Position numbers and translations under genes: made by a program. This document shows, in pieces, positions 15,178-22,393 of a DNA stretch of 64,000 bases (position 1 is the stretch's first letter; every line of letters begins with the position of its first letter). Source of the DNA: Kaistella montana. Lineage in GTDB: Bacteria; Bacteroidota; Bacteroidia; Flavobacteriales; Weeksellaceae. The stretch spans positions 496,001 to 560,000 of the forward strand of contig NZ_JANFQP010000001.1 of NCBI RefSeq assembly GCF_024436175.1, in the 5' to 3' direction. The notes under the pieces were generated by a model. It saw only the letters and a list, made by a program, of their open reading frames with translations, searched no databases and was not told the origin of the DNA.

Positions 15178-15217
15178 TATTTTTAGATTTTAATTTTTTA
15201 TTTTTTTTTTAGATGAT

Positions 15218-15703
15218 AGACGGATAGATAATAGATCAATGAATTGATTTTAATTTATAGGTCATTTTTTTTCTTTTTTCTATTCGTTCAAAGTATTTTG
15301 GAATACCATTGTGGCTCTTTGCCATTCTTCAAGTTTAATTTCAAGGATTTCTAAAGCTTCATCTGAAATATACTTTCTGTCATTTGCTAAAATCAATTGC
15401 GTTTGTAATTCGAAAGACGAACCTAAAGCAATATCAATAAAATGACTGAAAGATTTATTCGTTCGGCTTGAACCTTCAGCTATATTTGAAGGAATTGATA
15501 TTGAACACCTGTCCATCTGACTTTTTATGCCATATTTCTCAGTGATTGGAAAAGAATCGGTAAGTTCTAAGACACTTTTGGCAATATCTAAACCCATTTG
15601 CCAAATTTTCAACTTCTTGAAATTATGTCTTTTAAAACCACTCATTAGAAATTGTTTAATAATTACGTGCTCTATTATCTATTCGTCTATTATCTATTCG
15701 TCT
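15218..15703. mobile_element. candidate small element carrying a four-helix-bundle gene
   Basis: The 121-residue gene is bracketed by 18-bp inverted repeats: AGACGGATAGATAATAGA (15218-15235) and the reverse complement of 15686-15703, with 17 of 18 positions matching. A further tandem copy of TCTATTATCTATTCG is at 15671-15685. The unit interrupts the thiolase-dehydrogenase spacing in the fad operon. I see no target duplication, so mobility is an inference. Confidence 0.5.
15280..15645 (-). CDS. four-helix-bundle protein (TIGR02436 / 23S rRNA IVP family)
   Basis: A 121-residue helical protein of the TIGR02436 family, originally found in intervening sequences of 23S rRNA genes and related to bAvd of diversity-generating retroelements. 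Conserved blocks visible are FKKLKIWQMGLDIAK, the DSFP helix break, SQMDRCSISIPSNIAEGSSR, and LGSSFELQTQLILA. Basic first helices suggest nucleic-acid or protein binding, but the function is unknown. It lies between two beta-oxidation enzymes with no apparent functional link, flanked by inverted repeats. Confidence 0.88.
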   Translation of the reverse strand: MSGFKRHNFKKLKIWQMGLDIAKSVLELTDSFPITEKYGIKSQMDRCSISIPSNIAEGSSRTNKSFSHFIDIALGSSFELQTQLILANDRKYISDEALEILEIKLEEWQRATMVFQNTLNE

Positions 15704-19920: not shown

Positions 19921-20844
19921 TTAATGAAGGTTTGCGACGAAATATGAAATCTCTTTAAAGGAAACGCATTTTTTTTGAATTTTATCATCAGATAATACCC
20001 AAAAACGATCCTTGTATTCAAATTTTAGAGTTGAGAGGTCTTTTTTAAAGTTTTTTTGAAGAAAAGAATACAACATTTCCTTTTCCAATTGAGGTGCGAT
20101 AATTTTTGGAGCAACAAAACCTTCACTGAAGCGGAAAATTTCAGGATTTAGCAATTCGTCATGCTTTAATAGAATTTCTTCCGCGATTCCGGCTTCTAAT
20201 TTTTCATTATTAACCAACCAAATTTGATCCGAAAATTCTTTTGCCAATCGCCAATCATGGGAAGAAAAAAGAATGAGTTTATTATGTTTTTTAGCTAAAT
20301 TTCTTAGCAATTTTAAAATAATAATTTTATTCTCTTCATCGAGGTGAGTGGTAGGTTCATCAAGAATAATCATCGGAGAATTTTGTGCTAAAGCTCTTCC
20401 GATAAAAGCTTTTTGAAGGTTCCCGTCAGAAAGTTTTTGTAAAGGAAAATTTTTATATTGAGTTAAATTTAAACTTTCGATAATTTCTTCAACTTCTTGT
20501 AAATCAGATTTATTTAATTGAAAATAATAAGGGTAATGAATATACTTTCCGAGAGCAACCAAATCAGTCAAAGTGAAATTTGTCGGAACTTGAGATTTTG
20601 AAAAAACCACCGCGATTTGTTCGGCGATCTCTTTCTGGGAAAGTCTTTTTAAAGATTGATTTTGCAATAAAATATCTCCGCCCAAAGTTGGAATTTGGTT
20701 GAGAATCGATTTAATTAAAGTAGTTTTTCCAACACCGTTGTTTCCGATTAATAAACAAATTTCACCCAAATTCAACGAGGTTTCTACGCGTTTAATTAAA
20801 GGAGTTTTGTAACCGATTGTTGTATTTTTTAATTGTAAAAACAT
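19921..20844 (-). CDS. ABC transporter ATP-binding protein, iron/haem-type (FecE-like)
   Basis: ATPase partner of the FecCD permease encoded just upstream. Walker A is GNNGVGKT (34-41), Walker B MIILDEP (158-164), and the switch His196 is in SSHDW. The ABC signature reads LSDGN (138-142) rather than LSGGQ. The ATPase core ends near residue 230; an added region of about 75 residues follows and I do not recognise it. The first nine codons (MFLQLKNTT) are duplicated 579 bp upstream, on the far side of the GxxExxY insertion, so the insertion hit the start of this gene and left an intact copy. Confidence 0.88.
   Translation of the reverse strand: MFLQLKNTTIGYKTPLIKRVETSLNLGEICLLIGNNGVGKTTLIKSILNQIPTLGGDILLQNQSLKRLSQKEIAEQIAVVFSKSQVPTNFTLTDLVALGKYIHYPYYFQLNKSDLQEVEEIIESLNLTQYKNFPLQKLSDGNLQKAFIGRALAQNSPMIILDEPTTHLDEENKIIILKLLRNLAKKHNKLILFSSHDWRLAKEFSDQIWLVNNEKLEAGIAEEILLKHDELLNPEIFRFSEGFVAPKIIAPQLEKEMLYSFLQKNFKKDLSTLKFEYKDRFWVLSDDKIQKKCVSFKEISYFVANLH
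20819..20844. repeat. 26-bp direct repeat, copy A (start of the ATPase gene)
   Basis: Matches 21398-21423 at 25 of 26 positions (single T/C difference at 20830). It covers the ATPase start codon and first eight codons, and with copy B flanks the GxxExxY element. Confidence 0.85.
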
Positions 20845-21400
20845 ATTATTTAACGCAAAGGCGCAATTCTATTTTTTTATTTTAATTGGGCATTTAAGGC
20901 GCAAGAAAATCAAAGATTTTCATTTTCATAATCCATTAACAACCCTTTTTACACCATCTTTGAAAACATCAGTCCTAAAATTCAGAAGTAAACCTAGTTT
21001 GCAATTGGTCATTTTTAAGTAGGTCAAAAGTTGAGCTTTATGAACGTCATTAATAAAGTCTACAGTTTTTATTTCAATTATGAGTTTATCTTCAATAATT
21101 AAATCAATTCTATAAGCATTTTCGATTCTTAATTCTTCATAAATTATTGGTAATATTTTTTGTTTTTCTACTTTTAATCCCGTTTTTTTTAATTCATAAA
21201 ACAAGCACTCTTCGTATACATTTTCAAACAAACCTGCTCCAAATTTTTTTATGAATTTTTAATCCTAAATCAAAGACAATTTTAGATAATTCATTTTCTG
21301 TCATATTCTTGTTTTTAGTTTAAAATAATCAAAATGTCATCTTTGATGACTAGCGCCTTAAAACATCAATTTTGTAAAACTTATTTTGCGTCTTTGCGTT
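20845..21400. mobile_element. small insertion element carrying a GxxExxY gene
   Basis: An approximately 555-bp insert between the FecCD permease and its ATPase gene. Outer inverted repeats are AACGCAAAGGCGCAA (20852-20866) and the reverse complement of 21386-21400 (14 of 15 match). Inner inverted repeats are TTTAAGGCGC (20893-20902) and GCGCCTTAAA (21353-21362), and ATCAAAGAT occurs at 20909-20917 and inverted at 21339-21347. It is flanked by a 26-bp direct repeat made of target-gene sequence. No transposase is present, so it would be non-autonomous. Confidence 0.68.
20926..21304 (-). pseudogene. GxxExxY-family protein gene, frameshifted
   Basis: Members of this family are about 125-residue proteins of unknown function, named for the G-x-x-E-x-x-Y motif. 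Here the N-terminal part starts at ATG 21304 (MTENELSKIVFDLGLKIHK) and the remainder continues in another frame from KFGAGLFENVYEE to VVNGL. The two frames meet at a seven-A run (21244-21250 on the minus strand); six A residues would restore one reading frame and place the Gly of GLFENVY correctly. As it stands, the first frame ends at a TGA a few codons later. It may be a pseudogene, slippage-dependent expression or a sequencing error. Confidence 0.82.
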
Positions 21401-21423
21401 GTATTTTTCAATTGTAAAAACAT
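21398..21423. repeat. 26-bp direct repeat, copy B (duplicated ATPase start)
   Basis: Directly follows the permease stop with one base between. On the minus strand it reads ATGTTTTTACAATTGAAAAA, giving MFLQLKNTT before running out of frame identity and stopping at 21358. The original permease-ATPase junction was therefore nearly contiguous. Confidence 0.85.
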
Positions 21424-21424
21424 C

Positions 21425-22393
21425 TTAATTTTTCTTTAGCATCATCGCAAGAATCACCGGAATTCCGAACAATGAAGTGATTACATTCAAAGGAAATTGT
21501 GTTGTTTCTGAAATGATCGAGAAAAATTCCATGATGAAAATTCCTAAAATCATATTCAAAATCCATTGTTGCCACAGTTTTGCGGGGTTGAAGATCATTC
21601 GACAAAAATGCGGAACAACGATTCCGATAAATAAAATCGGTCCTAAAAATGCTGTTGCAGAAGCCGAAAACAGTGAAGAAGCAATAATGATCAAATATTT
21701 CAATTGATTCAAATTCACGCCTAAACTTTGGGCATAAGCCGTTCCTAAAGCGTTTCCGATCAATGGTTTTATGGATTTGAAACTCAAGAAAATTCCGAAA
21801 ATTACAATCACTGATAAAATCAAAATTTGGTTAGTTGAAACCTGATTATTCGCTCCGAAACTCCACAAAATATAATTTTTAAGACTTTGATTTTCCGCAT
21901 AAAATTGCAATATAGAAACGACTGCTCCCGCCAACGCAGAAACTAGAAATCCGAAAATAATTAGGAAAGATTTGTCTTGAAATTTATTGGAAAAAGCTAG
22001 TAAAATCAGCATTAACAAAAGACTTCCCGCAATCGCAGAAATGCTGAGAAAACTGTTTTGTAAAAATTCTGGAAGTACCAAATCTTGTGAGAAAAAAATG
22101 TAAAATGCAACACTTAGACTCGCTACAGATGAAATTCCCAAAACAGAAGGGCCGGCCAAAGGATTCTGGAAATATTCCTGCAATAAAAAACCGGAAGTAG
22201 GAATAGAAATTCCCGCCAAAAACATTGCCAAAACCCGATTGATACGAAGTTGCGCAATTTGTGAATTCTCAGAATTTGAAGCTAAAAAATCGGAAAAATC
22301 GAGTTTTAAAAAACCAATATTCAAGTTAATCAATATCGAAATAAAAATTCCGATAATGATGAGCATACAAATAAACCTGAAACTGATTTTCAA
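21425..22393 (-). CDS. FecCD-family ABC transporter permease
   Basis: A 322-residue integral membrane subunit for uptake of siderophore, haem or cobalamin. It has about nine hydrophobic segments and the family blocks RINRVLAMFLAGISIPTSGFLLQ, NPLAGPSVLGISS near the N-terminal third, and FLGPILFIGIVVPHFCR in the second half. The start is TTG 22393; a later ATG at 22366 would cut into the first membrane segment. It lies between a TlpA-like lipoprotein and the ATPase gene. No periplasmic binding protein is encoded nearby, so the ligand is not evident. Confidence 0.9.
   Translation of the reverse strand: MKISFRFICMLIIIGIFISILINLNIGFLKLDFSDFLASNSENSQIAQLRINRVLAMFLAGISIPTSGFLLQEYFQNPLAGPSVLGISSVASLSVAFYIFFSQDLVLPEFLQNSFLSISAIAGSLLLMLILLAFSNKFQDKSFLIIFGFLVSALAGAVVSILQFYAENQSLKNYILWSFGANNQVSTNQILILSVIVIFGIFLSFKSIKPLIGNALGTAYAQSLGVNLNQLKYLIIIASSLFSASATAFLGPILFIGIVVPHFCRMIFNPAKLWQQWILNMILGIFIMEFFSIISETTQFPLNVITSLFGIPVILAMMLKKN

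Follow-up and report, generated by a model that had tools for sequence, protein, structure and literature searches.

The window analysed here is a 64,000-nucleotide stretch of the Kaistella montana genome, in which an insert of about 0.55 kb separates a FecCD permease gene from its ATPase gene (Table 1). The sole gene of the insert is a GxxExxY (PDDEXK_3) gene, and Pfam and NCBIfam searches of this one gene matched only PF13366 (1.1e-33) and TIGR04256 (1.2e-34; 119.2 bits against a curated cut-off of 35). No recognised transposase gene was found in the insert by these searches, which bears out the first-pass annotation in its description of a small, transposase-free element carrying GxxExxY alone. 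The gene is the only GxxExxY match of its genome.

Table 1. Features of the insert and its host genes in the Kaistella montana window.
Feature	Position	Strand	Remarks
Host ABC ATPase gene	19921..20844	-	Open frame intact
Target repeat, functional copy	20819..20844	-	ATPase gene start (MFLQLKNTT)
Element core, outer end to outer end	20852..21400	-	549 bp; gene oriented along operon
Outer box, ATPase-side end	20852..20866	.	AACGCAAAGGCGCAA
Inner box, ATPase-side end	20893..20905	.	TTTAAGGCGCAAG
Hairpin adjoining inner box, ATPase side	20906..20920	.	AAAATC-AAA-GATTTT
GxxExxY (PDDEXK_3) ORF	20926..21231	-	C-terminal 101 aa with D..ExK..QxxxY
GxxExxY N-terminal piece	21224..21304	-	26 codons then stop, other frame: gene broken
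Hairpin adjoining inner box, permease-side end	21336..21350	.	GTCATC-TTT-GATGAC
Inner box, permease-side end	21350..21362	.	
Outer box, permease-side end	21386..21400	.	TTGCGTCTTTGCGTT
Target repeat, non-functional copy	21398..21423	-	Adjoins permease stop; 3 nt common to element outer end
Host FecCD permease gene	21425..22393	-	Open frame intact

The outer ends of the insert are inverted and identical at 14 of 15 positions, and the insert is flanked by a direct repeat identical at 25 of 26, both as the annotation had reported. Translation of the minus strand also reproduced its claim that the repeat is the ATPase start itself, with MFLQLKNTT encoded by both copies. The direct repeat can be extended to approximately 30 nt with 2 mismatches and scored 48, whereas 2000 random 60-nt pairs situated about 540 nt apart in the same window reached a maximum of 26. 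An assembly artefact is an unlikely source of the duplication, given the single base by which its copies differ. The inverted repeats had been described as nested: both boxes are indeed inverted, but outer and inner boxes fall within one gapped inverted alignment (score 28, against a maximum of 24 for just under 1000 random pseudo-elements from the window) and are therefore better named one compound end with a hairpin. Its layout is an outer box AACGCAAAGRCGCAA separated by 23-26 nt of spacer from an inner box TTTAAGGCGCWAG, with the hairpin following. There are exactly two exact occurrences of the window's outer end in the genome, both at the insert, with three one-mismatch matches elsewhere.

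The frame of the window GxxExxY gene is interrupted, the 26-codon N-terminal piece beginning at 21304 and the remainder being the 101-aa ORF of Table 1. The break appears to fall at about the T-run 21244-21250 and, with its frame interrupted, the copy is probably inactive. In an alignment of 178 proteins, E22, D62, E72-x-K74 and Q86-xxx-Y90 (alignment numbering) are conserved in at least 96% of sequences, a motif set that we take to be a PD-(D/E)XK active site of the Cas4/RecB type. A weak Cas4 profile match (6.6e-5, PADLOC) covers the same part of the protein. In Cas4, four cysteines hold an Fe-S cluster; these four are absent in GxxExxY, where 35 aligned proteins share one invariant cysteine, and the window ORF contains two cysteines. 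No solved structure was matched by sequence, even with E allowed up to 1. A toxin or a known defence gene was considered as the identity of GxxExxY and discarded, as PADLOC returned weak Cas4 profile matches only. Near relatives of the window gene are rare on plasmids, where the 101-aa ORF matched 6 of 72,556 records in a search that would miss more distant GxxExxY genes.

The permease-ATPase junction was surveyed by searching 36 Kaistella genomes and reading a capped set of 30 loci. In 17/30 the gap between the two genes is at most 61 nt, supporting the earlier proposal that the parent junction was near-contiguous. GxxExxY sequence lies at the junction in 7/30 loci (window included), two of which are visibly broken besides that of the window, and 6/30 junctions hold other content or are unreadable across, including one (L017) with a gene-less 160-nt unit bearing both ends. 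The nearest named relatives of the window ATPase are from Kaistella haifensis (88%) and two strains labelled Chryseobacterium (86%), and the three nearest relatives have a 25-nt gap. Comparison with insert-free relatives revealed the duplication in none: no second copy of the ATPase start was found within 800 nt upstream at any of 38 other distinct ATPase loci (best score 28 vs 46 in the window). Together with the intact frames of ATPase and permease, this supports the view of the first-pass annotation that the target was duplicated while the gene was preserved. A recent insertion into a never-touched junction is not accepted, because related copies occupy the junction across several genera, and a degraded end-like scar may be present there in the nearest relatives (seen by eye and unscored). 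At four loci (L016, L025, L050 and L052) other word families, e.g. GTGAAATCCGTGAAATCTGTGAG, sit right before the ATPase start without GxxExxY, and the junction therefore seems to be a hot spot. In one genome (G008, L013/L123), about ten tandem copies of a right end of approximately 110 bp lie between the GxxExxY and ATPase genes.

The window GxxExxY protein is 91% identical over 107 aa to the copy at the same junction in Cloacibacterium normanense, where ATPase and permease are 66% and 79% identical, and the other Kaistella junction copies reach 74-82%. Gene trees built from 14 junction loci (of the 17, three that are broken or partial were omitted, and the ATPase for L123 was taken from L013) disagree accordingly: the window ATPase groups with Kaistella (0.94) and its GxxExxY with Cloacibacterium (0.93). 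When GxxExxY identity was regressed on ATPase identity over 91 pairs, L125/L199 (99% vs 82%, z 2.6) and L158/L162 (98% vs 82%, z 2.4) stood out more than the window-Cloacibacterium pair, which gave z 1.63, its identity being lowered to 85% by about ten out-of-frame residues. The high identity of L158/L162 is largely confined to the element, and that of L125/L199 excludes the left end, which differs. With such outliers and element-confined identity, GxxExxY elements seem to have entered the corresponding junction of other species on more than one occasion, in a homing-like manner. A Cloacibacterium-like donor is the probable source of the window copy, which is probably now dead. The left ends of L199 and L125, whose proteins are 99% identical, differ as if one end had been exchanged.

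TIGR04256 is widespread, being present in 33/36 genomes of the genus, 139/197 sampled genomes of the family and 152/296 of the phylum, and one protein search returned 5107 proteins related to GxxExxY. Inverted ends were sought around other GxxExxY genes in a set of 183 loci (179 distinct, 178 with usable flanks), made up of the best-scoring places listed plus most Kaistella places and thus not a random sample. The inverted match between the 450-nt flanks had a median score of 35 over the 178 loci, against a median of 20, a 95th percentile of 26 and a 99th of 29 for 500 random pseudo-elements. The 95th percentile of the control was exceeded by 128/178 loci and the 99th by 113/178, with 50/178 failing the 95% control. 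Against reversed-sequence controls, 117/178 family loci exceeded both 95% levels, as did 23 of the best 30 loci phylum-wide. Neither of the conditions that the first-pass annotation had named as refuting its reading was borne out: insert-free relatives lack the duplication, and inverted ends recur at other GxxExxY loci. The 117 relatives with clear ends have a median end-to-end length of 588. The end words of the GxxExxY loci (e.g. CGCAAAG, CACAAAG, CACAGAG, CGCAGAT, CATTAAG, CACGAAT) are often repeated within an end and inverted between ends. At site 1 (L080-L103), by eye, several loci have both end motifs upstream, leaving GxxExxY outside its end pair.

A similar design was noticed about 5 kb from the window element, where a four-helix-bundle gene (TIGR02436, 15289-15606, minus strand) lies between inverted arms of repeated words (15211-15236 and 15671-15703, by eye; whole unit 15211-15703). 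Kaistella four-helix-bundle genes (L254-L283) often carry inverted tandem words of about 7 nt, e.g. TTAGAAG and GTTGTCG; their inverted flanks have a median score of 31, and 14/30 lie above both reversed controls.

The hairpins were scored in the family of this junction, where 17 elements yielded 29 inner boxes in 28/34 ends, the six ends without a box match being left unscored. Hairpins at the inner boxes had a mean score of 12.8, compared with 5.6 for shuffled tails (95th percentile 12.0). Thirteen distinct hairpins with a 3-nt loop, representing 23/29, have 97.4% paired cells, with 25 cells changed on both sides, and their covariation score of 0.88 was reached by none of 500 shuffles. Slid partners were at most 46% paired, a control that leans towards the hairpins because these were picked for pairing, shuffled tails being the fairer one. 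On this covariation, the predicted end hairpin is conserved in shape by compensatory changes.

When the 179 loci were grouped by their neighbouring ORFs they collapsed to 46 sites, 155 loci falling in 22 shared sites; of the 20 sites represented by three or more loci, 14 hold an exclusive protein clade. Because of this site loyalty, movement between sites is, as far as gene neighbourhoods and clades indicate, rare. The more alike the proteins at two different sites, the more similar are their ends (site-level Mantel rho 0.40, p 0.0002, 35 sites; 116 elements, those with clear ends only). Over 6329 pairs in total, the mean end score was 18.8 below 35% protein identity (1549 pairs) and 34.5 at 70% or above (114 pairs, of which many link sites 4 and 7). 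Comparison of ends on the wrong strand gave no relation to protein identity in the same 116 elements. One locus (L163) has a protein of the site 2 clade together with that clade's ATTAAG word, yet is located at another site. Moreover, an element's own left and right ends matched each other better than same-site ends from other genomes in 6/20 sites (uncorrected p<0.05), most clearly at sites 0, 3 and 4; in the other 14/20 no such advantage was found at p<0.05, a level that sites of three loci cannot reach.

Dispersed copies were evident in one genome, G032; the window genome has a single copy. The best match between two G032 copies (L248 and L249), which lie at unrelated sites with different neighbours, spans 919 nt at 85%; it runs from outer box to outer box and takes in an additional end unit past the gene, and more end units surround both copies. 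A 101-nt end has 36 matches in this genome, 14 around these two copies and 22 elsewhere. None of the 22 lies within 1 kb of any of the six GxxExxY places; 6 are nearly full length and the rest about half or less (11 places were read).

A second case of target duplication was indicated at site 7, between ABC permease and thioesterase genes. The hint there first looked like ordinary coding sequence, but empty genomes revealed that the two genes overlap, by 11 nt in 19/30 loci. At the four loci with GxxExxY, the element is flanked by the last codons of the permease and, opposite, by the thioesterase start. Provided that overlapping is the older arrangement, the duplication comprised no less than these 11 nt; L344 has 14 identical bases. 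That the overlap is older is likely from this distribution but not certain: 7/30 loci have other inserts or gaps, and as four of these, element-free, have a different permease end and a gap of 56-83 nt, the overlap may be derived. Gene-less inserts of 156-214 nt with ATTAAG-type words were seen at the site 7 junction in L346, L350 and L354. In a search for flanking duplications around the 117 clear-ended elements, only the window exceeded all controls and L092 equalled the control maximum. Pooled by site, a duplication signal was present in 3/16 sites; restricted to strictly outside sequence, the signals of sites 0 and 7 vanish without L001 and L092 respectively, and site 2 keeps z 3.0. A long target duplication as a class feature is thus rejected as a general rule. 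The duplication is clear in the window and supported at site 7 but invisible in nearly all of the 117. The two sites show that insertion can apparently be accompanied by 11-26 bp of duplicated target with both host genes left intact.

Taken together, sequence comparison supports the gene and its compound ends forming one putative unit, along with the hairpin shape, the transfer and the duplication. That GxxExxY gene and coupled ends are a mobile unit is, in our judgement, quite likely; whether the GxxExxY nuclease is itself the mobility enzyme we regard as an evenly balanced matter. On balance, the probable reading of the locus is a nuclease-only, site-loyal, homing-like miniature mobile element, this copy being of Cloacibacterium-like origin. 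In such an element, the nuclease would recognise each of the two ends by its words and hairpin and start movement by opening the DNA there. Repair at the conserved junction would then insert the unit, sometimes with the target duplicated, the target being chosen by the nuclease. Movement would be rare and mostly homing-like, leading to the same junction in another species. Here, the element of a Cloacibacterium-like donor would have passed to the orthologous junction in a Kaistella ancestor, its arrival duplicating the ATPase start, and the reading frame would have been lost since.

The 26-bp repeat might instead be a by-product of recombination, with ATPase homology on one side and 3-nt microhomology (AAC) on the other. 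In its favour, donor and recipient genes resemble each other at the ATPase ATG, the point where the exact repeat starts, the other join does share AAC, the likely donor copy occupies the orthologous junction, and nearly all other elements are without long repeats. However, the illegitimate join coincides exactly with the element outer end, where a random position in the donor flank would be expected, and a duplicated target also occurs at a second site (site 7) in another family; we find this account rather unlikely, though a serious contender. A homing-like insertion that duplicated the ATPase start is the reading we prefer.

Other alternatives concern the ends. Hairpin ends resemble the substrates of HUH enzymes, and the ends could be moved in trans by another enzyme (e.g. 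a REP-type HUH transposase), leaving the nuclease as a passenger or with a role in, e.g., defence. In a search that covered PF01797 alone among HUH enzymes, matches were present in 30/36 Kaistella genomes, and G032, in which gene-less end copies are dispersed, has the most (7). Yet the window genome and five others have no PF01797 match although five of these six carry GxxExxY, one of them four times, so such an enzyme is not needed in the window genome, and the end words track the nuclease sequence. The window element may have been mobilised in trans in the past, but we judge this explanation of the class unlikely. The inverted ends could also be kept for RNA, pairing in the operon transcript and looping the insert out in the manner of 23S rRNA intervening sequences, with little DNA mobility. 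This would fit the orientation of GxxExxY, co-directional with both neighbouring ORFs in 160/178 loci compared with 39/61 one-strand ORF triplets in the window, as well as the specific left-right end match at some sites. Against it, the ends hold direct word repeats and their own local hairpin, gene-less copies are dispersed and related units occur at different sites, and we consider a purely RNA-level role very improbable. A mobile unit of gene and coupled ends is still the interpretation followed here.

A wider version is that GxxExxY proteins are the mobility nucleases of phylum-wide miniature elements, each lineage of the minimal Cas4-like nuclease reading a private code of repeated words and a hairpin of conserved shape at the two ends, with homing to fixed operon junctions, gene-less offspring and a parallel class built on four-helix-bundle genes; this is conceivable but, for now, somewhat doubtful. 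The recurrence of the gene-plus-ends unit in many related bacteria points to a type of mobile element that is widespread but has hardly been described. Should gene and ends prove to be a single mobile unit, there would be a testable function for a large orphan family of proteins and an origin for a common type of intergenic repeat, and experiments could address how a Cas4-like nuclease brings about mobility without a transposase.

The first-pass annotation had suspected a little-described class, and this held in the open-licence literature, a body of 5.39 million papers that leaves most subscription papers and all preprints outside. There, TIGR04256 was not found, and GxxExxY was not found beyond two passing mentions: in the accessible text of PMC8934634 it is once named as a pipeline-reported domain replacing cas4 beside a reverse transcriptase, and in that of PMC12085832 it stands once among the gene names of an algal virus table. 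An earlier description of GxxExxY elements may exist. The closest published repeats found, in the portion of the source available, are TAACTGA heptamers, which occur in Beggiatoaceae, Cyanobacteria and Bacteroidetes as short words repeated close to start codons and which that paper considers potentially mobile (PMC4679880). These differ in being direct repeats rather than inverted pairs around a gene, and the word 'nuclease' is absent from the main text of that paper. Intervening sequences of 23S rRNA with an S23/four-helix protein, according to the accessible part of PMC4990558, are similar in carrying a small ORF in a selfish insert. Kaistella four-helix-bundle genes also often bear inverted word ends; the window insert, however, lies in an ABC transporter operon and encodes another protein family.

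Like insertion sequences and MITEs, GxxExxY elements have inverted ends, a small size, one gene and gene-less derivatives; duplication of the target is seen once at least and probably twice. Unlike them, they carry a PD-(D/E)XK nuclease without a recognised transposase and are site-loyal, and a duplication is usually invisible. REP/REPIN sequences with their RAYT proteins have hairpin ends, dispersed gene-less units and ends tied to one protein family, and RAYT is an HUH enzyme. GxxExxY elements share the hairpin ends, the dispersed gene-less units and the tie between ends and protein; work on REP and RAYT systems includes PMC3116915, PMC3686654 and PMC3733652. In contrast to REP/RAYT, a Cas4-like nuclease lies inside the unit, and the window genome has no match to PF01797 (HUH, Y1). 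Lastly, homing endonuclease genes are free-standing and nuclease-only, and one would not expect to find compound inverted ends, hairpins or target duplication with them. All three of these features set the GxxExxY element apart; what it has in common with homing endonuclease genes is that it is nuclease-only and that, on identities and gene trees, it apparently arrived horizontally at an orthologous site.
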